DNA from: a virus
IMG/VR virus record: IMGVR_UViG_3300030389_001910
Coordinates: 1-36,241 of that record
Length of the DNA stretch: 36,241 nt
Strand: one strand, 5' to 3'
The notes beneath the pieces were generated by a model that did not search any database, was not told the DNA's origin, and was given only the letters and a program-made list of their open reading frames with translations. A program made the translations under genes and the position numbers. Shown one piece after another: positions 11,271 to 32,417 of the stretch (its first letter is position 1; each line of letters starts with the position of its first letter).

Positions 11271-12406
11271 TATATATTCCTTAAAACATTATCATACATG
11301 GAACTCGCAAGTGCTTTCATCATTAACGATGGCACCATTCTTCCACATCTCTCTGATTTTTGAGCCCACTTACCTGTCAATATAAAATCGTCTGGTAGTG
11401 ATGTTACTCTTTTTAATTCACCTAAAGTAAACTTTCTGTCTTCTTCCCAATGACAAACTCCAGCAGTTTTTTCTGTTGCACCCATGGCAGTAATAGTAGG
11501 TGACGGATGAAACTCTGATGCAATCTTTAAATTAAAATGCCAACCTTTTGGATGATAGTCTGTGCCTGTAATTACTTTGTCTGGGTTGCGTGGCATCAAT
11601 ACACAAGTTTGTTTGTAGTATGCTGTTTCTTTCCACATTCTGGTTAACATTTCCACTTCATCATTATCATATTCTAAACCATCAAAGGCACCTTGTAAAG
11701 TGGTAATTGTTTCATTCTCTTTTGGAAATATTGATGATAGTGTCATAAAATTTAAACCAACTTGATCCATAATATCATCTCTAACTGCCATGAAGAAAAC
11801 TCTTCGTCTTCTTTGTGGAACTCCAAACTGTGAACAATCATGCACTTTTGCAACTACTTGATATCCAATGTCTTCAAATGTATTTTGTATTTTATTAAAA
11901 TATTGTTTTGCCTCTCCGACTGTAAGACCTTCAACATTTTCTGCGATAATAGTCTTTGGTCTAATCTTATCTGCAACTCTTAAAAACTCAAAGAATAAAT
12001 CTTCAATGTTTGTAACTATCTTTCCGTCTGAGTAAGATTTAGTTTTACCAAATCCGTCACTATGAACTGTTCCTTCTCTTGCAAGTGTTCCACACATACT
12101 AAACGCTGAACATGGAGGTGATCCGTCTAACAATTCAAGTTCACCTTCTTTTATATTTGCAATCTCTAAAAAATCTTTTCCTTCTAGTTCTTTGATATCA
12201 CCATCAAGAATAGGTGTGTTTGGATAATTATCTCTGTAAGTATTTCTTGCTTCCTCAACAAACTCATTTATTGCAAGTATCTTTCCACCTGCAAGACGAT
12301 AACCTGTGGAACTTCCACCACCACCTGCGAAAGTAGATATGACACGAAACTTTTCTTGTGCCTCTCCGTCTAATACGTCTTTCATTAAGTAAGGTTTGTA
12401 TTTCAT
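11270..12406 (-). CDS. Cytosine-C5 DNA methyltransferase-family enzyme, Asn-to-Arg in motif X
   Basis: 378 residues with the full set of C5-methyltransferase motifs: I (FAGGGGSSTGY, 26-36), IV (GSPPCSAF, 95-102, catalytic Cys99), VI (ENV, 156-158), VIII (QRRRR, 198-202), a target-recognition region at about 215-320, IX (LGELKRVTSLPDDF, 328-341) and X. In motif X the near-invariant GN-x-V-P is CGRMVP (354-359), so Arg356 replaces the Asn that lies beside the SAM donor. In M.MpeI, basic substitutions at this Asn permit Cx-SAM use. It lies between an AsnB-like gene (ATGA overlap) and a CmoA homologue (TAATG overlap). No restriction partner is adjacent. I infer cytosine carboxymethylation in phage or host DNA; plain methylation is the alternative. 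Confidence 0.9.
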   Translation of the reverse strand: MKYKPYLMKDVLDGEAQEKFRVISTFAGGGGSSTGYRLAGGKILAINEFVEEARNTYRDNYPNTPILDGDIKELEGKDFLEIANIKEGELELLDGSPPCSAFSMCGTLAREGTVHSDGFGKTKSYSDGKIVTNIEDLFFEFLRVADKIRPKTIIAENVEGLTVGEAKQYFNKIQNTFEDIGYQVVAKVHDCSQFGVPQRRRRVFFMAVRDDIMDQVGLNFMTLSSIFPKENETITTLQGAFDGLEYDNDEVEMLTRMWKETAYYKQTCVLMPRNPDKVITGTDYHPKGWHFNLKIASEFHPSPTITAMGATEKTAGVCHWEEDRKFTLGELKRVTSLPDDFILTGKWAQKSERCGRMVPSLMMKALASSMYDNVLRNI

Positions 12407-13224
12407 ATAAAGTTTTCCAAAGTGCCTTTACTGTCAACTATTTTTGACCAGTCACGACACACATCCATAATTCTTTTCCTATCATATATGTTTATCTCTT
12501 TATTGTCAAGAAGTTTCTCAAATATAGTTGGTATCTCTGCGACAAGTTGTAAATTAAGATGTTTTTTAAGTTTAAGTTCATCAAACTCATGAAAATGTTG
12601 TCTAATTAAATGCTTTTCATATGGTTTATTAATCTGATCCCAATCAAATTGTATGAAATAATTAAATACATCTTTATTTAAATAAGGTGCAATCAGAATC
12701 TTATTATGTTCTTTACTTAACATTTCTAATTGTCTAACACCTGCTGGATTATCTGATGAAAAATAGTCTGTTCTAAATTTATCAAACTTTTGTTTGGTAT
12801 GTTTAAAATGTATCATGGCCTTTTTACTTAGACCATAGTGTCCGTCTGCGGCAACACCAGATATAATAACTTTCTCTTTTATCTTAGGATACATGTACAT
12901 GAATGGCCAAGTGCATTCAAATTGAACTTTCTTTTTGCAACTGTATGTGTATGCCAACTTTTTAAAGTCTTCAACTAAATTTTCAGTTGGCACTTCAATG
13001 CTTGTAAAATTAAATCCAAACTTTTCACATACCTCTTGTGCTTTTAGTGAGTCGTAAGTAGGATTATCTTTTATATGAAAAGAATATCCATGTACTTTTA
13101 AACCGAGACGGTTAGAAGTAAAAAGGCAAGTGTTGCTGTCAACGCCGCCAGATAAGAGAATAGCAACTTCAGTTTCATTTTGTCTCTCCTTTGTTATTAT
13201 TGTTTCTAGTAATTTGTGTATCAT
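12403..13224 (-). CDS. Asparagine-synthetase-like PP-loop ATPase without glutaminase domain
   Basis: 273 residues corresponding to the synthetase half of AsnB. PP-loop SGGVDS at 25-30 follows AILL; SGVAADGHYGL (122-132) matches the AsnB SGEGADELFGG segment; LIAPYLNKDVFNYF and Lys204 fit the later core. Enzymes of this type adenylate a carboxylate and pass it to ammonia or an amine. The N-terminal glutaminase is absent, so ammonia or another amine would be the nucleophile. ATG 13224 overlaps the gp43 stop (ATGA) with GAGGA 9 bases upstream. The last residues (GTLENFI) resemble the gp43 tail (GTLEDFFA), a likely clamp-binding peptide. Context suggests it amidates the product of the neighbouring DNA-modifying enzyme; free asparagine synthesis is less likely. 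Confidence 0.8.
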   Translation of the reverse strand: MIHKLLETIITKERQNETEVAILLSGGVDSNTCLFTSNRLGLKVHGYSFHIKDNPTYDSLKAQEVCEKFGFNFTSIEVPTENLVEDFKKLAYTYSCKKKVQFECTWPFMYMYPKIKEKVIISGVAADGHYGLSKKAMIHFKHTKQKFDKFRTDYFSSDNPAGVRQLEMLSKEHNKILIAPYLNKDVFNYFIQFDWDQINKPYEKHLIRQHFHEFDELKLKKHLNLQLVAEIPTIFEKLLDNKEINIYDRKRIMDVCRDWSKIVDSKGTLENFI

Positions 13225-15695
13225 GCAAAAAAGTCCTCTAATGTTCCTTGTGTACCATAAGTTCTATCAACATGCCATCCAATTTTTTCGATAATAAAGT
13301 TAAGTGGTTCAATGAATGATTTCTCAAACTGTAATTCATAATCAACTTTAAAATCAAGTTGTTTAGGAAGACTTGTAATAAATGATATAGACGATGATTG
13401 ATATATGTTTGGAAGTTTTAAATATAAGAATTTAATCTTGTCACCTTCTTGTATTAGAGGGTAGTACCTACTTAGTTTATTTTTATTTATTAGATGATTG
13501 TAAAGTATTCCACCTTTGACGTGTATCGGAGCACCTTTCTTAAAAAGTGTATGAGACTCAGACCATTTACTCAAACCATTGACACTTCTAGGATATGCGA
13601 TCTCCTCTGGTGGAAGTGTAAGAAACTCCTCACGAAAATTTTGTATAAATGTATTCAAATCTTTTTCATTGCCAGACATCATAATTCTTAATGCCTCTTT
13701 AATTTTCTTACGACAAGGTGCAGGTGTTGATGACTTAACTGCTTCTATTCCCATGATCTTTAATGTTGGTTCTTTGTATCTAACACCTTCAATATCATGT
13801 GCATTTAAAATATATCTCTTCTTTGCAGTCCAAATACCTTTATCTGCAATCACCTCTCTTTTCATTTGCATCTTTTGTTCAAACGCATTTAGATAGTCTG
13901 CAAGTTCTTGATAAGACTTGTCAATAAAAGGTTCAATTTTTTCTTTTGCAATCTTATCTAAAAAGTCAATAGGATTTTTTGGTTTTAGTTTTTTAATTAA
14001 TTCATCAAATGTTATGTAAACTGAATCAGTGTCAGACGCAAGAACATAATCTTTATCTTTAGTTTTTAATAAATTGTTCATGTATTCGTTTATCTTTTTT
14101 TCAATCCAACGAATAGATAGTTGACCAGAAGTAGTTATTGCCTCTGCCATAGTGTGTGAGTAATATCTAAACCAATTGTTTCCTATGGCACCATATGCTG
14201 AGTTCAGTGCAATCTTTTTTGCCATCTGTATATTATTAAATTTAGAAACTAACTTTTCATACTTTTTATCTCTAGTGTTTTCTAGAGTTTGTTTTGCATC
14301 AAGTAAAGCCTTTTTGTATCTTACTCTGTCGTCATACATCTTTTGCATCATCTCAGGTAAGAAACCTTTCTTATCAGTTCTAAACAAAGCACCATTAGGT
14401 GTCATCGTTGTATTTTTCAAAACAGATGTATCAACTTTTTTATCTAATAGTTTATCAACTGACATGTTAGGAACTGTCTTTTCACTTTTCATAGTTTCTG
14501 GTGATATATTATATTGCATAATCAAGTGTGGATACAATGAGTTTAGATCAAATGAAAGAACCCATTCATGCATACCCGTTTGTGGATCTTTTACATATGC
14601 ACCTTCATACTTCTCAGATTTTTCTCTGTCAATCTTTTGTGGCACAACTATACCTTTATCCATAAGATAATTGTGTATTAAAATATCCCAATACTTAACT
14701 GAACCTAAAACATCAGTGTAGTTTACTTTGGCCTCATATGCCATAGTCAAACACAAATCAATCAGTTTCATTTTCTCTTCAAGTTTATCAACTATCTCAA
14801 CGTCTGTAATATTGTAATCAATAAAAGATTGAAAATCATTTGTGTACCAATCTCTAAATGTGTCATAAGGATTTCCGTCTTTTCTTTCACCAAGTTCAAC
14901 AAATGCAATATGATCTAAACGATATGACTCTTGATTTGTGTATGTAAACTTTCTATACAAATCAAAGTAATCTAAGGCAGCGATACCTTGTATATCATAA
15001 ACTTGATGTGTGCGACCCATAGAGTAGATTGTCTTTGATGATACAGAACCCCAAGGTGATAATTTTTTTAGATCATCCTCACCACAAAGTTTTTTTATAC
15101 GATTGCAAAGATAAGGTATGTCAAAAAATTCTGTATTCCAACCAGTGATAACATCTGGTTGATTCATTTGCCAAAACTTTAAAAATTCAAAAATTAATTC
15201 TTTTTCATTATCACACTTTACATATGCCACATCATTCCTATGCGTTTTGTAATCGCCAACACCCCAAACAAATATTTGTTTGTTTGAATGATTTTTTACT
15301 GTGATAGAAAGTAAAGGTTCAATTGCATCTTGTGGATTTGGAAAACCATTTTCACATGCAACCTCTATATCGATTGTTGCAATTAGAATACTTTCTAATG
15401 ACCAATCTAAGTTAGGATAGTTTTCATACAAAAAAGAATATGCATACTGTGTATTACCATATAATAAATGTGGTTGTTCTTTGTATTGTTCAACCCACTC
15501 TTTCGCATCTTTTATTGTTTGATGTTTTATAGGTGTAACGTATTTACCTTCAAGAGTTTTGAAGTTTGTTTGACGCATCACTGGGCAATAAAGAGTTGGC
15601 GAATACTTTACTTTTCGATTTACTCTTTTGCCGTCTATGACTTCTCTAAGTAATAAGTTGTTTCCCCATTGAGAAACATTTGTATAAAACCTCAT
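13221..15695 (-). CDS. 43: DNA polymerase gp43 (family B)
   Basis: 824 residues; T4 gp43 is 898. Proofreading motifs are Exo I DIE (109-111), Exo II NTEFFD (187-192) and Exo III YNITD (294-298). Polymerase motif A is DLNSLYP (383-389), motif B is KKIALNSAYGAIGNN (493-507) and motif C is DTDS (555-558). All catalytic acids are present. The C-terminus GTLEDFFA matches the short hydrophobic clamp-binding tails of T4-type polymerases. The start ATG 15695 has no Shine-Dalgarno, but a strong promoter ends 6 bases before it, so the first message may be leaderless. It heads the operon that carries the modification cassette, uvsX and gp41. Confidence 0.97.
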   Translation of the reverse strand: MRFYTNVSQWGNNLLLREVIDGKRVNRKVKYSPTLYCPVMRQTNFKTLEGKYVTPIKHQTIKDAKEWVEQYKEQPHLLYGNTQYAYSFLYENYPNLDWSLESILIATIDIEVACENGFPNPQDAIEPLLSITVKNHSNKQIFVWGVGDYKTHRNDVAYVKCDNEKELIFEFLKFWQMNQPDVITGWNTEFFDIPYLCNRIKKLCGEDDLKKLSPWGSVSSKTIYSMGRTHQVYDIQGIAALDYFDLYRKFTYTNQESYRLDHIAFVELGERKDGNPYDTFRDWYTNDFQSFIDYNITDVEIVDKLEEKMKLIDLCLTMAYEAKVNYTDVLGSVKYWDILIHNYLMDKGIVVPQKIDREKSEKYEGAYVKDPQTGMHEWVLSFDLNSLYPHLIMQYNISPETMKSEKTVPNMSVDKLLDKKVDTSVLKNTTMTPNGALFRTDKKGFLPEMMQKMYDDRVRYKKALLDAKQTLENTRDKKYEKLVSKFNNIQMAKKIALNSAYGAIGNNWFRYYSHTMAEAITTSGQLSIRWIEKKINEYMNNLLKTKDKDYVLASDTDSVYITFDELIKKLKPKNPIDFLDKIAKEKIEPFIDKSYQELADYLNAFEQKMQMKREVIADKGIWTAKKRYILNAHDIEGVRYKEPTLKIMGIEAVKSSTPAPCRKKIKEALRIMMSGNEKDLNTFIQNFREEFLTLPPEEIAYPRSVNGLSKWSESHTLFKKGAPIHVKGGILYNHLINKNKLSRYYPLIQEGDKIKFLYLKLPNIYQSSSISFITSLPKQLDFKVDYELQFEKSFIEPLNFIIEKIGWHVDRTYGTQGTLEDFFA

Positions 15696-15701
15696 GTAAT
15701 C

Positions 15702-15730
15702 ACTATACCATAATTATGAAAAATAGTCAA
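15702..15730 (-). promoter_or_regulatory. Sigma70-like promoter of gene 43
   Basis: TTGACT (15725-15730), a 17-base spacer, and TATAGT (15702-15707) on the minus strand. The predicted start is at about 15695, the A of the gp43 ATG. The -35 lies inside the 3' end of the amidinotransferase gene. Confidence 0.75.
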
Positions 15731-16949
15731 CCAGTTTCCCTTCTCTTTCTAAATCAACTGAACAACAATGGGCACCACCAGAGAATAATACATTCCAACG
15801 ATTAACCCATGGTATCATTTCAATATTATATTTTTTTAATTTGTCTGCAAGATTTTTATCATAACCTGATGTAATAATTGTATTTTCATCTAAAGATAAT
15901 ACGTTACAATCAAATCTAGTTTCTTGTGATAAACCAAACAAATGTTCTAAAGGATATTTTTTATTTAATCCTCTTTCTTCACATAACTCTTTAATTGTTT
16001 TACCGTCAAAGTTTGCTGATTCTTCCATTAGTATTATATCCCAATTATGATCTTTCATAATTTGTGGAACATATCTCTCTGCCCACGTTAAAACTAAACC
16101 AGGTCTTAGTATTGCAAACTTACCGTCAACATGACCGTACGCATTTAATGATACAAACTCATGTTGTGGAAACTCTCTTCTATACCAATCTATACCATTT
16201 GTCGTTATACACATTCTAGAGTGTTCTACAATATCTAATTTTTGTTGTGGATTTGCATGTGTGTGAAATATATGTTTACCACACTTATAGATACCAGCAG
16301 TGTCGCCGATAATCTGTCTTTGATCATCTAAATGCACTATTTCTTTATGTGCCATTGTATTGTTTGTAAGTAAATCCTCTTGATGTTCATATTTTTTATC
16401 AATGTGATCTGCATATTCATACATAGGATAAGGCATTGATATAACTCTTGATCCCTCTTCAAACTCGTCTAACATCACATTTCTATAGTGAAAATTCTCA
16501 AATCTCCTATTTGGGGAGGCCGCAAATGCCTCAATGATCGTATTTCCAACTTTTCCAAATACATCTCGACACTGTAACGGATGTTCTAATAAACTTTCAA
16601 TTCCATATTGAAGTTTTGGTCTGACAACTTCAGCGCCATATGCCTCACAAATTTTTGCTAATGCATCAGTGTCTTCATTAGTTTCGTCATGAATTTTTTT
16701 AAGTGAGTCAATGGTTGGGGCATCGAATATATCAAATAAACTTTGAATAGTATTTTTTATATGTCTTATACGAAAAGCATGTTGTTGATTATCTTTAAAT
16801 ACACCGAACTTTTTATGTCTGTGTTCTAAATCTTCTTCATATGCGAATAGAAGTTTTCTCTTTGATTCTTCATCAATGTCTTCTATCTTAAATGTGCTTC
16901 CAACTAAAACTTTTTTAAGTGGTGACCATTCATCATAAACTGTTTTCAT
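15714..16949 (-). CDS. Arginine:glycine amidinotransferase / DDAH-superfamily enzyme
   Basis: 411 residues from ATG 16949 (GGAAAG upstream; the longer frame to 16964 needs TTG). The N-terminus EWSPLKKVLVGS is typical of amidinotransferases. GHVDG (His273) and GGAHCCSVDLER (His394, Cys395) are the catalytic His and Cys motifs, and GDTAG probably supplies an acidic residue. Human glycine amidinotransferase is of similar length (423). The family either moves the amidino group of arginine to an amine or hydrolyses guanidines. The acceptor is unknown. Placed between regA and gp43, inside the replication core, it could affect host arginine/guanidino metabolism or add a group to a modified molecule. 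Family assignment firm, reaction not. Confidence 0.85.
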   Translation of the reverse strand: MKTVYDEWSPLKKVLVGSTFKIEDIDEESKRKLLFAYEEDLEHRHKKFGVFKDNQQHAFRIRHIKNTIQSLFDIFDAPTIDSLKKIHDETNEDTDALAKICEAYGAEVVRPKLQYGIESLLEHPLQCRDVFGKVGNTIIEAFAASPNRRFENFHYRNVMLDEFEEGSRVISMPYPMYEYADHIDKKYEHQEDLLTNNTMAHKEIVHLDDQRQIIGDTAGIYKCGKHIFHTHANPQQKLDIVEHSRMCITTNGIDWYRREFPQHEFVSLNAYGHVDGKFAILRPGLVLTWAERYVPQIMKDHNWDIILMEESANFDGKTIKELCEERGLNKKYPLEHLFGLSQETRFDCNVLSLDENTIITSGYDKNLADKLKKYNIEMIPWVNRWNVLFSGGAHCCSVDLEREGKLVDYFS

Positions 16950-17346
16950 CTTTAGTCTTTCCAATATTATATTTTGTTTCTAAAGTCCATTCAGACTTTT
17001 CTTTGAAACTAATAATTTTGATTTGACTAAGTGGTGACATGTTTTGTACCTCACCATTTATATTAATCAAACCCCAATCTTTCAATAGACTAGCGATTCT
17101 GTTTCTTCTACCAATATCATTCTCTGTTAGATTTGTTTCTTTACCATCAAGTGCAAATAGTTCTTTGAAATGAACTATGTAATACTTACCTTGTTTGTGA
17201 AGAATATGACAAGACTGATATAATTTTTTTTCTTTTCTTGAAGCCACACCAATTCTAGATAATGTTTCTCTGACTTTCAAAAAATCATCAGGCTCTTTTA
17301 GAGTCACTTCAAGCATGTCGTCTTTACTAAAACTAATGTTTTCCAT
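16933..17346 (-). CDS. regA: RegA translational repressor
   Basis: 137 residues. From residue 11 the protein matches T4 RegA (122 residues) closely: MLEVTLKEPDDFLKVRETLS, YQSCHILHKQGKYYIVHFKE and WGLININ are diagnostic. RegA binds start regions of early phage mRNAs and blocks their translation. ATG 17346 has a good ribosome site (AAAGGCGGA) and overlaps the gp62 stop by 14 bases; the homology would also allow ATG 17316, which lacks a clear ribosome site. It lies after gp62, as in T4, but an amidinotransferase gene separates it from gp43. Confidence 0.95.
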   Translation of the reverse strand: MENISFSKDDMLEVTLKEPDDFLKVRETLSRIGVASRKEKKLYQSCHILHKQGKYYIVHFKELFALDGKETNLTENDIGRRNRIASLLKDWGLININGEVQNMSPLSQIKIISFKEKSEWTLETKYNIGKTKDENSL

Positions 17347-25020: not shown

Positions 25021-25044
25021 GACAGGTTGGGGGTTTATTGTCAA
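25016..25044 (-). promoter_or_regulatory. Sigma70-like promoter of the cobT-like gene
   Basis: TTGACA (25039-25044), 17-base spacer, CATTAT (25016-25021). Predicted start is near 25009, two to five bases before the ATGs. The -35 overlaps the stop of the sugar dehydrogenase gene. Confidence 0.7.
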
Positions 25045-26198
25045 GGGTTAATTTTATCGTTTATTCTCTCATTCCCATAATTTTCCCATACATTGAAAAC
25101 GTCAATGTTTTCGGGCGTTTTATCACTTGGCCACGATTGGAACAAAATGTCGCAGTCTTCAATATCCACGATTTCGCCACCATTTTCCTTGATATAATGT
25201 TGAACTAATAGAATGTAACTTCCGTCTTCGTTATCTACACCCTCTTTGAAACCTGTGCTTGTAAATGCTACTTTTTTCTCAACTACTCTACCTGTTGCAT
25301 CTTCCAATACTCTTTTTGCAAGAGTCTCTGCTTGTTTTTCTCTTGTCAACATGGTTTGTCCAAATAGATCATAATCTAAACTTAATTGTTTTGACAACCA
25401 TCTTAGTGCAATGTTGTCTCTTGGATGACAACTTCCACCATCGCCCAAACCAGGTTTCCAATACTTAGAACTGACAAGTCTCTTAGTTGATTTCGATAAG
25501 ACATCACAGATAAAGTTTGCATCTGTATTTTTCATCTTATCTGCAACGTCTTGTATCATGTTTACAAAATTAATTTTTTGAGTTATGTAAGTATTGTAAA
25601 AAATTTTAATACACTCTGCTTCTTTTAGATTACAACTTTGTATTTTTATATTTGTACCTTCATATATTGATTTGTAATACTCAATCAATTTTTTTGGTCT
25701 GTATGCTTCTTGATCCACTGATAATTTTTCTTGCACACCAATAAGATACATTTCTGCATCCATGAAATCTTGAGCCACTGTTCCTTGTGCGATAAACTGT
25801 GGACTATAAACAAAATTAGTATTAGGAACTAAATCTATTAATTTTTTTTCACATGTGGTTGGTAACACTGTTGACATGACAACTATCATTTGATCTTTTG
25901 TCATGAACTCATTTAGTTCAGAAAGTGTTTCAGTTAAAATGGTGTAATCAAAATCTTTTGGTTCTAAATGACTTGTAGGTTTGTCTCCACCATATTCTTC
26001 ATCGTGTGGTGTTGGAACACAAACAAATACTATCTCTCTATCGTTCATAGATTCTTTTAGTGAACCATGAACTATTTCTCTAGGTTGATTACGGTTGGTT
26101 ACATTGGGATCAAAACCCGTAACATCGTGACCTTTTTCGTATGATACATCACTAAGAGGTCTACCTAACTTACCTAAACCAACAAATCCTACTTTCAT
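25041..26198 (-). CDS. UDP-glucose/GDP-mannose 6-dehydrogenase family protein
   Basis: 385 residues. N-terminal NAD-binding Rossmann motif GLGKLGRP (7-14); VCVPTPHDEE and MSTVLPTTCEKKL are characteristic; PQFIAQGTVAQDF parallels EFLREGTAxxDF; EAECIKIFYNTY carries the structural Lys/Asn; GDGGSCHPRD at 252-261 has the catalytic Cys257. The family oxidises a UDP- or GDP-hexose to the uronic acid in two NAD-dependent steps. Substrate cannot be decided. It ends the accessory block that includes three possible glycosyltransferases (ATGA overlap with the nearest), so it probably supplies a uronic-acid donor or acts on a host sugar nucleotide. Confidence 0.88.
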   Translation of the reverse strand: MKVGFVGLGKLGRPLSDVSYEKGHDVTGFDPNVTNRNQPREIVHGSLKESMNDREIVFVCVPTPHDEEYGGDKPTSHLEPKDFDYTILTETLSELNEFMTKDQMIVVMSTVLPTTCEKKLIDLVPNTNFVYSPQFIAQGTVAQDFMDAEMYLIGVQEKLSVDQEAYRPKKLIEYYKSIYEGTNIKIQSCNLKEAECIKIFYNTYITQKINFVNMIQDVADKMKNTDANFICDVLSKSTKRLVSSKYWKPGLGDGGSCHPRDNIALRWLSKQLSLDYDLFGQTMLTREKQAETLAKRVLEDATGRVVEKKVAFTSTGFKEGVDNEDGSYILLVQHYIKENGGEIVDIEDCDILFQSWPSDKTPENIDVFNVWENYGNERINDKINP

Positions 26199-29273: not shown

Positions 29274-30018
29274 AGATAAACTCCATAATATTTTTCTGTG
29301 TCTCTTCATTAGGGTGATGATCTACATCACTGATGGCATGATACTTGTTATTCCTATCTAAATGTCTCACAAGTTCTATGCCTCCTAGTTTACCAAACAC
29401 AGGCCAACCCCAAAACATATCTTCATTTATTTCAGTTGATATCGGATTACTAATCATACTTTTCTGTGCAATCTTAATATCATGTTCATAGTCATTATCT
29501 TTTATTTGATAACGATTAAATGCGTTAATCATTTGAAACATTTTTAATTCTATATCTCTTGATTTACATATTGCATACAAAGAGTAAAATAAATTTATAT
29601 TTTTGTTAACAATATTTTCAGGTGTCGGATAACTAGAACCAAATGCATTATTGTACCAATTTTGTAATTCATGTAAATCATATACACCATACTTTGGTTT
29701 ACATGTTGCAGAAACTTTTAAATTAGGTTTAAGTGTTACCCAATTATTATTTACTAAGAAATCTTGTCTAGTCCATTCTGTCCAAGCGACAATAACTCGT
29801 TCAATATTTTCATTATTAAATATTTCTGTTATTACACTATGAAATATTCTTTCATTTCCTATCCCACACTTTGCAGTATTAATTACTTCAATATTAGTTT
29901 TGTCACTAAGTAATTCTGGCCACATTTTAAAAGTATGTGGTAAAGGTTTTGTAGTATATGGATAAAACTTATCTGTAAAACTACAACCACCAACTATAAT
30001 TTTAGAAGACTTTGACAT
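29257..30018 (-). CDS. SGNH/GDSL-type hydrolase-like protein
   Basis: 253 residues. Block I is IIVGGCSFTD with candidate nucleophile Ser13; block II is NTAKCGIGNERIF with the oxyanion Gly; the C-terminal ISDVDHHPNEETQKNI supplies the Asp and His of a D-x-H-P motif. This fold removes or transfers acyl groups, often acetyl on sugars. The block III Asn is not obvious (VIVAWTEWTRQD), as in many divergent phage members. Placed between the carbamoyltransferase and the glycosyltransferase-like genes, it may trim or modify the same glycan. Confidence 0.7.
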   Translation of the reverse strand: MSKSSKIIVGGCSFTDKFYPYTTKPLPHTFKMWPELLSDKTNIEVINTAKCGIGNERIFHSVITEIFNNENIERVIVAWTEWTRQDFLVNNNWVTLKPNLKVSATCKPKYGVYDLHELQNWYNNAFGSSYPTPENIVNKNINLFYSLYAICKSRDIELKMFQMINAFNRYQIKDNDYEHDIKIAQKSMISNPISTEINEDMFWGWPVFGKLGGIELVRHLDRNNKYHAISDVDHHPNEETQKNIMEFIYENIF

Positions 30019-31318
30019 TATATTTTCTCATAAAATCAACTGCATCATCCCATGTATTCACAATAGGTTGACCTTTGATATTCAAAGAAGTGTTTAATAA
30101 CATAGGACACCCAGTTTTTTCATGCCATTCTTCCAATATAAGGCGGGCTACAGACGGATTTGACTTCTCTACGACTTGTACACGGGCAGTGCCATCAATA
30201 TGTGTGACAGACTTATAATCGTGGAGTGCTTTTGATACGAACTGCATATAACGATTCTTTCTACCATAAAAGTATTCTTCAAAATATTCCTCTAGTATCA
30301 TTGGTGCAAATGGTCTATATTTCTGTCTTTTTTTAATTTGATTAATCGTATCTTTTAAATTTGTTCTAGGATCAGCGATAAGAGAACGATTACCCAGAGC
30401 CCTTGGTCCAAACTCTGCTCTTCCGTTTGCAATACCACAATACTTGTGTTCTAATAAATGATTTACTACTTGTTTTGGATTGACACTTCTTACAATATTA
30501 TAACCTAGATATGGATGTTTCCAATTTAATCTTGCACCATTGATTAATGCGGCCGCTCCTAGTGATGAACCTGCATCGCCAGGTGACGGCATAATCCAAA
30601 CATGATAGTCTTTAGGTATCTTACTATTTGCAACACAGTTTAAAGCACATCCACCCATAATGATTAGATTTTTTTTAGTTGTATATTTTAATAATTCTAA
30701 AAATTTTTTCTCATACAATTGTTGCACTGATGCTGCCAGATCATAGATGTGTGCGTTAGGATATATGTTTCCAACTCCTCTATGATTATTTTGATATAGT
30801 AAGTTTTCTAAATCATGTATCGGTTCACCATATGCGGCCATACCCATTGTAATATACTCATCTTCATTTGGTTTTAATCCTATTCTTTTAGTTATTGCAG
30901 AGTATAATAACCCTAATGAGTATGGATACTTCCATGACTTTATTTTTTTCATGTTGTGCCAAATTGATATCGTATCCCATTCTCCTATCGCATCAACTAC
31001 TATTATATTACAATCATGGAAAGGTGCAGTGTAATAACCTGCGGCAGCATGTGTCTGATGATGTTTAAAGTAATAATCATATTTACTTTTTGGTGATATC
31101 CATTTTTGTCCAGCATATAATCTTCTTGTATTTTTTAAAAATGGTGATTCATAAAATGCAGAACAACGATAACTTATTGGTATTTGTTTTTTCGATATCC
31201 ACTTATCGTTTTTTATACGACTATATCTTTCACTATGAGATGCATGAACAATCTCTTGACCATTTAGAACAGTAACACCTGCATCATGAAAACCCTCTGA
31301 TATTCCTATGTTATACAT
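30002..31318 (-). CDS. Carbamoyltransferase (NodU/TobZ family)
   Basis: 438 residues, shorter than many NodU/TobZ-type enzymes. Signature segments: FHDAGVTVL and SERYSRIKND near the start, KHHQTHAAAGYY (metal/Kae1-like domain), MGGCALNCVANSKI, PSPGDAGSSLGAAA, then the YrdC-like part GRAEFGPRALGNRSLIADPR and CPMLLNTSLNIKGQP. The family uses carbamoyl phosphate and ATP to carbamoylate a hydroxyl on a sugar, antibiotic or, in some phages, a hydroxymethylated base. The acceptor here is unknown; sugar genes surround it. Overlaps its neighbours by 8 and 17 bases. Confidence 0.9.
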   Translation of the reverse strand: MYNIGISEGFHDAGVTVLNGQEIVHASHSERYSRIKNDKWISKKQIPISYRCSAFYESPFLKNTRRLYAGQKWISPKSKYDYYFKHHQTHAAAGYYTAPFHDCNIIVVDAIGEWDTISIWHNMKKIKSWKYPYSLGLLYSAITKRIGLKPNEDEYITMGMAAYGEPIHDLENLLYQNNHRGVGNIYPNAHIYDLAASVQQLYEKKFLELLKYTTKKNLIIMGGCALNCVANSKIPKDYHVWIMPSPGDAGSSLGAAALINGARLNWKHPYLGYNIVRSVNPKQVVNHLLEHKYCGIANGRAEFGPRALGNRSLIADPRTNLKDTINQIKKRQKYRPFAPMILEEYFEEYFYGRKNRYMQFVSKALHDYKSVTHIDGTARVQVVEKSNPSVARLILEEWHEKTGCPMLLNTSLNIKGQPIVNTWDDAVDFMRKYNVKVF

Positions 31319-31646
31319 TTTTTTTCACTGTACAAAATCTTTTACATTTATAATATGCATCATCATAATTTTTCCATGAGTTAGGTAATGTATCACTGAA
31401 CCATTTTGACTCTAGTATCTTATCCAAAGGTTTTTTGAATATATTATATTCATCTTTGTGTTCCATGTATTCTCTCATGATATGTTTGTTCTTTCCGTCA
31501 TTTTCAGTTTTGTACAATCTATCATCATCATTAATATCATATTTGTAAGCAAGATTACTTAAATAACAACACGGCCATACTTGACCATCTGGGTTTACTA
31601 TAACTCTGTTGTTATTCTTCCATTCACACTCAATACAATTTGTCAT
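31311..31646 (-). CDS. Stand-alone SPASM-like Fe-S domain protein
   Basis: 111 residues with seven Cys: CIECEW at the start, VNPDGQVWPCCYLSN, and CKRFC near the end. This is the auxiliary-cluster (SPASM-like) half normally fused to the C-terminus of a radical SAM enzyme. Here it is a separate frame that begins as ATGA at the stop of the radical SAM gene. It may pair with that enzyme, be fused to it by a -1 slip at AAAA just before the stop, or be the product of a mutation that split the gene. Confidence 0.7.
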   Translation of the reverse strand: MTNCIECEWKNNNRVIVNPDGQVWPCCYLSNLAYKYDINDDDRLYKTENDGKNKHIMREYMEHKDEYNIFKKPLDKILESKWFSDTLPNSWKNYDDAYYKCKRFCTVKKNV

Positions 31647-32302
31647 TTTCTTAGTGTTTGTTCTTTACCATTTTCATCTATGAAGTTAAATGTGTCACCA
31701 TATTCAAATCTATTTGAGTCAAAGTGTTTATAGTGAACTGCACCATAACTTCTTGCAAGTTCCTCTATTTGTTTTAAATAAGGTCTATTGTGTTCAAACA
31801 CTACTGTTTGTGCCATAGGTATTGCAAGTGTTCTTGATAACATTTCCATATTGTTTAAAGTTTTTTGTAAATTAGTTTTTCTACGATAATGACTATGCAT
31901 GTCTTGATCTATACCATCTACATCAAAGTGCATTTTTAATCTATTACCACAAAGTGCCCCTAACTCCCAATAAAAAGTATCTTCCCTTATTGAACCATTT
32001 GTGGTTATTTCTATATTACAATCACTCTCAGTAATAATATATTCACATATTGAGTAAATATCTTTTAACATCATTGGATCACCCCAAGTACCACAGAATT
32101 GTAGTTCTCCTAATTGATTTAATGAATCTTTGGGAAATGCTTTTTTAAAATCTTGTAACGTCCATTGTGTAAGTGGCAACCAATCATCTACTCCACAACC
32201 GTTTGGATTTGTCCTATCACATTGTGGGCAACCTGCATTACAAAAGTTTGTAATAGATAAATCAATCTTTGTGATTTTTGAATTGTTCCATGTCAATGTC
32301 AT
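31643..32302 (-). CDS. Radical SAM core protein
   Basis: 219 residues from ATG 32302 (GAGGACCCAG upstream); ATG 32329 is possible but has no clear ribosome site. TNFCNAGCPQCDRT carries the CxxxCxxC iron-sulphur motif (Cys21, 25, 28). LQFCGTWGDPMM stands for the GGEP SAM-binding motif, and EITTNGSI for the next strand. The partial TIM barrel ends without a C-terminal cluster domain; that domain follows as a separate gene. Substrate unknown; could modify a sugar, peptide or base. The start overlaps the 51-residue gene by 41 bases. Confidence 0.85.
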   Translation of the reverse strand: MTLTWNNSKITKIDLSITNFCNAGCPQCDRTNPNGCGVDDWLPLTQWTLQDFKKAFPKDSLNQLGELQFCGTWGDPMMLKDIYSICEYIITESDCNIEITTNGSIREDTFYWELGALCGNRLKMHFDVDGIDQDMHSHYRRKTNLQKTLNNMEMLSRTLAIPMAQTVVFEHNRPYLKQIEELARSYGAVHYKHFDSNRFEYGDTFNFIDENGKEQTLRK

Positions 32303-32417
32303 CTGGGTCCTCGTAAATAAAGTCATCATATTTTTCGTCTTTTTTGAAACGACTTAAAAAAGTATTCCAATATAATAAGATGTATAATTTTATTTTTTTA
32401 ATTTTTTTATATATCAT
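32262..32417 (-). CDS. 51-residue small protein after gp46
   Basis: ATG 32417 overlaps the gp46 stop as ATGA and the frame runs 51 codons to TGA at 32262. Residues 1-10 are basic (MIYKKIKKIK), 11-21 hydrophobic (LYILLYWNTFL), and 33-43 acidic (FIYEDPDDIDM): a likely small membrane-associated protein with the basic end inside. It fills an otherwise empty 84-base gap and overlaps the radical SAM start. Support comes from the exact coupling and ordered charge pattern, not homology. Confidence 0.5.
   Translation of the reverse strand: MIYKKIKKIKLYILLYWNTFLSRFKKDEKYDDFIYEDPDDIDMEQFKNHKD

Follow-up and report, generated by a model that had tools for sequence, protein, structure and literature searches.

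A pathway that places 5-carboxymethylcytosine in DNA was demonstrated in December 2025 in Synechococcus phage S-B43 (PMC12783734). There S-B43 CmoA makes Cx-SAM, CmoX forms 5-carboxymethylcytosine in DNA with its Arg350 binding the carboxylate, and CmoY ligates glycine to the 5-carboxymethylcytosine in DNA, a reaction observed in E. coli as well as in vitro for which an adenylation step is the authors' proposal (PMC12783734). The substrate demonstrated for S-B43 CmoY is DNA and not the mononucleotide, and the phage DNA contained 5gcxmdC and not 5cxmdC. In the paper, ammonia from glutamine is left to a separate cluster that retains a glutaminase domain; clusters are also reported that differ in their active-site residues and whose amines are unknown, and ParBc is named as a partner (PMC12783734). 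A search for literature on phage carboxymethylcytosine found nothing beyond this paper among the titles listed.

In this study we looked at an ORF of a marine virus, a T4-like phage, within a window of 36,241 nucleotides, the whole stretch of DNA that was analysed (Table 1). Beta-lactam and carbapenam synthetases, whose fold the ORF is predicted to share, ligate by way of an acyl-AMP, retain an N-terminal domain and form their amide within one molecule, and glutamine-dependent members of the Asn_synthase family use ammonia. This kind of enzyme has been known since December 2025 and the ORF adds to the CmoY family a member from a phage group other than the tested one. We consider it probable, on sequence grounds, that it is CmoY, which completes a DNA hypermodification pathway of three genes, and that it most likely attaches an amino acid to a carboxyl already placed on the viral DNA.

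Table 1 Features of the putative CmoY locus in the window
Feature	Coordinates	Strand	Evidence
CmoY homologue, stand-alone AsnB/beta-lactam-synthetase-type ATP-dependent amide ligase (predicted), 273 aa	12403..13224	-	Pfam, PHROG, identity to S-B43 CmoY, model and fold search
SGGVDS pyrophosphate loop, residues 25-30	13135..13152	-	G27 and D29 in 67/67 distinct sequences
SGVAADG loop, residues 122-128	12841..12861	-	Profile alignments
Lys204 of CmoY homologue	12613..12615	-	Aligns with Lys of ASNS KhLLRE; 67/67 distinct CmoY
CmoX homologue, C5-cytosine transferase expected to use Cx-SAM, 378 aa	11270..12406	-	8yf3 match, SPPC Cys99, Arg356
CmoX Arg356 (GRMVP), position of carboxylate-binding Arg350 in S-B43 CmoX	11339..11341	-	Alignment; role from PMC12783734
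CmoA homologue, putative Cx-SAM synthase, 237 aa	10557..11270	-	54.9% identity to S-B43 CmoA
gp43 DNA polymerase, upstream neighbour of the ORF	13221..15695	-	PHROG 262 DNA polymerase, 1078.6 bits
Amidinotransferase homologue, probable ATG at 16949	15714..16964	-	phmmer to HsvA 2.2e-12, human AGAT 9.5e-11

The CmoY homologue and its predicted fold

The ORF starts with ATG and is not a chance reading frame, since the longest stop-free stretch in 30 mononucleotide shuffles of the window reached 193 codons against its 273 aa, and relatives are encoded at 32 viral contig loci. Pfam PF00733 (Asn_synthase) matches residues 4-130 (E 3.2e-13) and PHROG 26038 matches both this protein (3.7e-32) and S-B43 CmoY; the score on TIGR01536 (asparagine synthetase), 48.5 bits, lies below the cut-off of 267.1. 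The first-pass annotation had described the SGGVDS and SGVAADG motifs in a protein without an N-terminal Ntn domain, and this was borne out, with no glutaminase (Ntn) family matched in the ORF in the Pfam search and no such domain possible ahead of SGGVDS as this begins already at residue 25. The ATGA overlaps that it had placed at both ends of the gene can be read directly at the junctions with gp43 (GCATGATACAC) and with the methyltransferase (ATATGAAAT).

An AlphaFold model of the ORF (mean pLDDT 92.1, 31-row alignment) resembles the C-terminal synthetase domains of human ASNS (VIA Z 23.4, rmsd 2.7, 257 aligned), beta-lactam synthetase (VIA Z 22.5, rmsd 3.1, 258 aligned) and E. coli AsnB (VIA Z 20.4, rmsd 2.9, 261 aligned), with matches spanning nearly the entire ORF, whereas PP-loop enzymes outside this family (LarE, NadE and TilS types) reach a Z of about 10-12 or less. 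The AsnB-like, beta-lactam-synthetase-like fold suggested earlier is thus supported by the PF00733 match and by the model, and the predicted AMP-forming PP-loop synthetase fold is accompanied by the ATP-site residues. Nearly the entire ORF corresponds to the C-terminal synthetase fold of beta-lactam synthetase (1mc1, 1jgt) and carbapenam synthetase (1q15), but identity to these is 12-16% and the beta-lactam synthetase loop residue Tyr348 is Val124 here. AsnB and ASNS have the fold, SGGxDS and the Lys of KhLLRE in common with the ORF but differ in possessing a glutaminase domain and the Glu of SGEGSD, the former being absent from the ORF and the latter replaced.

A search of a phage record collection with the ORF matched 58 of 50,697 records, and its nearest relatives there were in S-B43 and two other phages of the same host (46.3%). 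The S-B43 CmoY (MN018232.1, product 'putative asparagine synthase') aligns with 99% of the query (46.3% identity, E 7e-74), has the same length and fold family, likewise no glutaminase domain, and the same invariant ATP-site and basic residues. In S-B43 as in the window CmoY is joined to CmoX by ATGA-type coupling with CmoA in the same gene run; the order there is CmoA-CmoY-CmoX, adjacent and with 4-base overlaps, in contrast to gp43-CmoY-CmoX-CmoA in the window. The amine acceptor was tested in S-B43 only and, at 46% identity, we infer from that protein that the window enzyme would catalyse the same reaction with the same amine.

In the mechanism that we propose the CmoA homologue would make carboxy-SAM from SAM and prephenate and the CmoX homologue would place a carboxymethyl group on C5 of DNA cytosines. 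The CmoY homologue would then use ATP to adenylate that carboxyl, with release of pyrophosphate, and attack of an amine on the acyl-AMP would give an amide on the modified DNA cytosine. The first-pass annotation had foreseen a modified DNA base whose carboxyl is activated, which homology to S-B43 CmoY favours, but also a neutral amide that would mask the negative charge. This second part has to be corrected because glycine brings a new carboxylate, and the tested homologue (PMC12783734) therefore preserves the negative charge; a neutral amide was for this reason rejected as the default product.

Partner genes and the gp43-uvsX interval

On the minus strand the genes run regA, amidinotransferase homologue, gp43, the ORF, C5-methyltransferase, CmoA homologue, a small ORF and uvsX, the CmoA and amidinotransferase homologues being additions to what had been annotated around the ORF. 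The closest PDB match of the methyltransferase is 8yf3, which is S-B43 CmoX (phmmer 3.8e-141, 60% identity), and both the SPPC cysteine and the arginine at the Arg350 position are present. The CmoA homologue is so named on its identity to S-B43 CmoA. On TIGR00740 it scores 104.6 bits (6.3e-30) against a cut-off of 193.3, but the biochemically tested S-B43 CmoA at 115.6 also falls short so that the cut-off does not discriminate here. ParBc (PF02195) gave no match at E 0.001 in 20 further window proteins and none at 0.1 in ten others, a scan that covered the larger ORFs. GpC depletion was considered as a sign of modification and discarded as uninformative, GpC standing at 0.86 and CpG at 0.56 of expectation.

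The nearest isolates by gp43 are the Methylophilales phages Melnitz (63.9%), and these carry a C5-methyltransferase and a Tet/JBP oxygenase (Tet_JBP 3.6e-11) after gp43 and before uvsX, which is the slot of the base-modification genes in the window. The Melnitz-type methyltransferase has Leu instead of the Arg of the window CmoX, and Methylophilales were not seen among the organisms of the CmoA matches listed. The gp43-uvsX gap thus holds alternative base-modification genes, and a pathway with biochemistry from one cyanophage now extends to marine T4-like phages whose nearest gp43 isolates infect Methylophilales. Melnitz-2 (L058, 82-6194) also has a RimK-like ATP-grasp gene in the regA-gp43 slot, followed after gp43 by the Leu-type C5-methyltransferase and then the Tet/JBP oxygenase.

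Residues conserved across the CmoY family

Conservation was assessed over 67 distinct CmoY sequences. R151, K204 and H222 are invariant (67/67) and K99 is found in 66/67; all four are also present in S-B43 CmoY and may bind DNA phosphate or the carboxylate of the amino acid. By profile alignment Val124 of the SGVAADG loop corresponds to beta-lactam synthetase Tyr348 and to the Glu of the ASNS SGEGSD loop, both of which we take to act in catalysis. Residue 124 is V in 37 sequences, W in 13, I in 9, L in 6, F in 1 and Q in 1, and never Glu, Asp or Tyr. If the Tyr and Glu are indeed catalytic, CmoY has to activate its amine in some other way, as fits a substrate that is not ammonia. Around the synthetase loop the window protein has W106, V124 and A125 where S-B43 has F, I and G, and its amine acceptor could consequently differ from that of S-B43.

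Linkage of CmoY, CmoX and CmoA across viral loci

Linkage was counted over 199 viral-contig loci, overlapping loci of one contig included and identical proteins counted once. Among 115 CmoY loci a CmoX-like ORF was found on 84, CmoA on 73 and both on 73, CmoX or CmoA being absent from the stretch read in 42. CmoX-like ORFs of at least 330 aa were scored for the arginine at the S-B43 Arg350 position, which is present in all 40 distinct ORFs on CmoY loci and in 4/4 on loci with CmoA but without CmoY, in contrast to 1/9 on loci with neither, where the other 8/9 have Leu as in the Melnitz type. At the position of SpCmoX Cys98 the alignment of L216 read YLCC, probably from a large insert, and it was left out.

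Thirteen records were searched whole, 11 of them with CmoY only in the stretch read. Neither CmoX nor CmoA was found in 10 of these 11, all below 20 kb, while the eleventh, L099 (80 kb), has both CmoX with the Arg and CmoA elsewhere on the record. We had considered whether loci with CmoY but no CmoX point to a different substrate, and this was dropped given that the sole long record has both genes elsewhere. Two Erwinia phages have CmoA near CmoY and a CmoX-like protein of 723-725 aa elsewhere, with the Arg in both. In one of them, pEa_SNUABM_7 (L035, 10941-12017), a DUF1611 protein directly precedes the CmoY homologue with CmoA nearby, and the CmoX-like domain lies within the 725-aa protein with a large insert.

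A scan of a cellular collection (84,980 species, one genome each) found 1 relative, with contig neighbours that read as T4-like phage genes; this contig (L212, PAAV01000055.1) is apparently a T4-like phage contig binned into a Chloroflexi MAG. A further CmoY group (L102-L124), several members of which have a GGGxDS loop, lies on contigs too short for CmoX or CmoA, and in two of these (L114, L117) we read the upstream ORF as glutaredoxin-like and the downstream one as nuclease-like. The CmoY reading frame of L030 (5989-6845) is broken, possibly by an assembly error. Two tandem CmoX-like genes with the Arg in both occur in L130 (8779-11011) and L148 (3980-6245); L148 has CmoA and an ATP-grasp gene ahead of gp43 with no CmoY match, and there the ATP-grasp ligase might replace CmoY.

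Exchange of CmoY between related phages

In a comparison of 15 hand-picked loci, not all of which have every gene, phages with CmoX 89-99% identical carry three types of CmoY, represented by the window, by L043/L045 and by L072-L083, that are 43-57% identical to one another, with gp43 76-81% identical between those types. A conflict is seen in L072, which compared with L043 is 95% identical in CmoX, 92% in CmoA and 95% in uvsX but 46% in CmoY, its CmoY being instead 92% identical to that of L076. The CmoY tree rejects L072 with L043 and L045 (p-AU 1e-49), and the CmoA and uvsX trees reject L072 with L074, L076 and L079 (p-AU 9e-71 and 8e-80), for groups that were named after the identities had been seen and for a 5.8-kb metagenomic contig that is possibly chimeric; the CmoX tree decides neither grouping (p-AU 0.16, 0.52). 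The three types do not depend on L072 alone. Judged from these genes the pattern points to cassette exchange, in which closely related phages appear to swap CmoY and keep the rest of the pathway, and this is new here relative to the published pathway. The exchange of CmoY and its amine is the part of the locus worth attention, the rest being ordinary in kind. If exchange tracks a change of amine it would offer a ready set of ligases for attaching different amines to DNA, of use in restriction studies and DNA labelling.

Alternative acceptors and functions

The same ligase could act on 5-carboxymethylcytosine DNA with an acceptor other than glycine, the CmoY types having diverged in acceptor choice, possibly aided by the amidinotransferase. 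The divergence of CmoY types beside CmoX of around 90% identity, the tree conflict for L072, residues specific to type at positions 106, 124, 125, 128 and 131, and the clusters with distinct active sites and unknown amines in PMC12783734 all speak for such a difference. However, a switch of substrate does not follow from divergence or exchange of CmoY by itself, the basic residues common to the family stay the same, and the amidinotransferase occurs with two CmoY types and is linked to neither one in particular, and we regard a different amine as rather unlikely in the window protein. Ammonia as the acceptor, giving the neutral 5-carbamoylmethylcytosine of the first-pass annotation, would suit a member of the Asn_synthase family, but it is very unlikely in a protein that has no glutaminase domain and in a family whose residue 124 is in no case the Glu of the ASNS loop, and the nearest tested homologue uses glycine.

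That the ORF is a metabolic gene, coding for a free-standing asparagine synthetase or for a PP-loop enzyme that modifies tRNA, might be suggested by weak family matches to QueC, MnmA and NadE. These are partial, and all lie below cut-off except Pfam QueC (25 vs 22 bits), against a fold similarity of Z 20-23 to AsnB and beta-lactam synthetase compared with about 10-12 for LarE, NadE and TilS types. As the family is moreover linked to CmoX and CmoA and its single relative in the cellular collection sits on a T4-phage-like contig, we give this explanation hardly any credence, and ligation of an amino acid to the carboxymethylated DNA cytosine is the reading that we prefer.

The amidinotransferase homologue ahead of gp43

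Between regA and gp43 the window carries an amidinotransferase homologue that is a possible accessory decoration enzyme. Its Asp221, His278 and Cys400 align with the catalytic residues of AGAT. A first scan placed relatives on 27 contigs, and a repeat that used an alignment gave 25 loci without adding any. Of these contigs 8 end before the CmoY slot and 19 extend into it, and CmoY is present in 19/19 (18 by tblastn, L042 by its last 48 bases). The gene was nevertheless rejected as an obligate part, as there are CmoY contigs without it: in seven (L076-L079, L081-L083) regA runs into gp43, and L073 has a gap before gp43 with no amidinotransferase in it. In L126, L130, L131 and L158 an ATP-grasp gene is found ahead of gp43 instead.

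The amidinotransferase is far more divergent than its neighbour genes: in several phages that share 85-94% gp43 identity with the window, its own identity to the window copy is only 55-71%. In the isolate collection 15 records match, all below 60% and at 23-27% among the matches listed, 12 of them Campylobacter phages. Our search found no literature tying an amidinotransferase to 5-carboxymethylcytosine modification among the titles listed, and the terms amidino, guanidin, horizontal and ATP-grasp are absent from the main text of PMC12783734. The enzyme would need a free primary amine and the ligated glycine offers none, so that for it to act in the pathway either the amine or the order of steps would have to be different. 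It is a speculative and improbable scheme that CmoX provides a constant carboxyl handle and CmoY an exchangeable cassette, with the fast-diverging amidinotransferase joining in, in the lineage of the window, to give a guanidino-bearing, positively charged base decoration instead of plain glycine.

Elsewhere in the window the minus strand encodes a carbamoyltransferase (30002-31318, PF16861 1.2e-48) and a radical SAM protein (31643-32329, 4e-9), and a UDP-sugar dehydrogenase lies at 25041-26198 of the same record.
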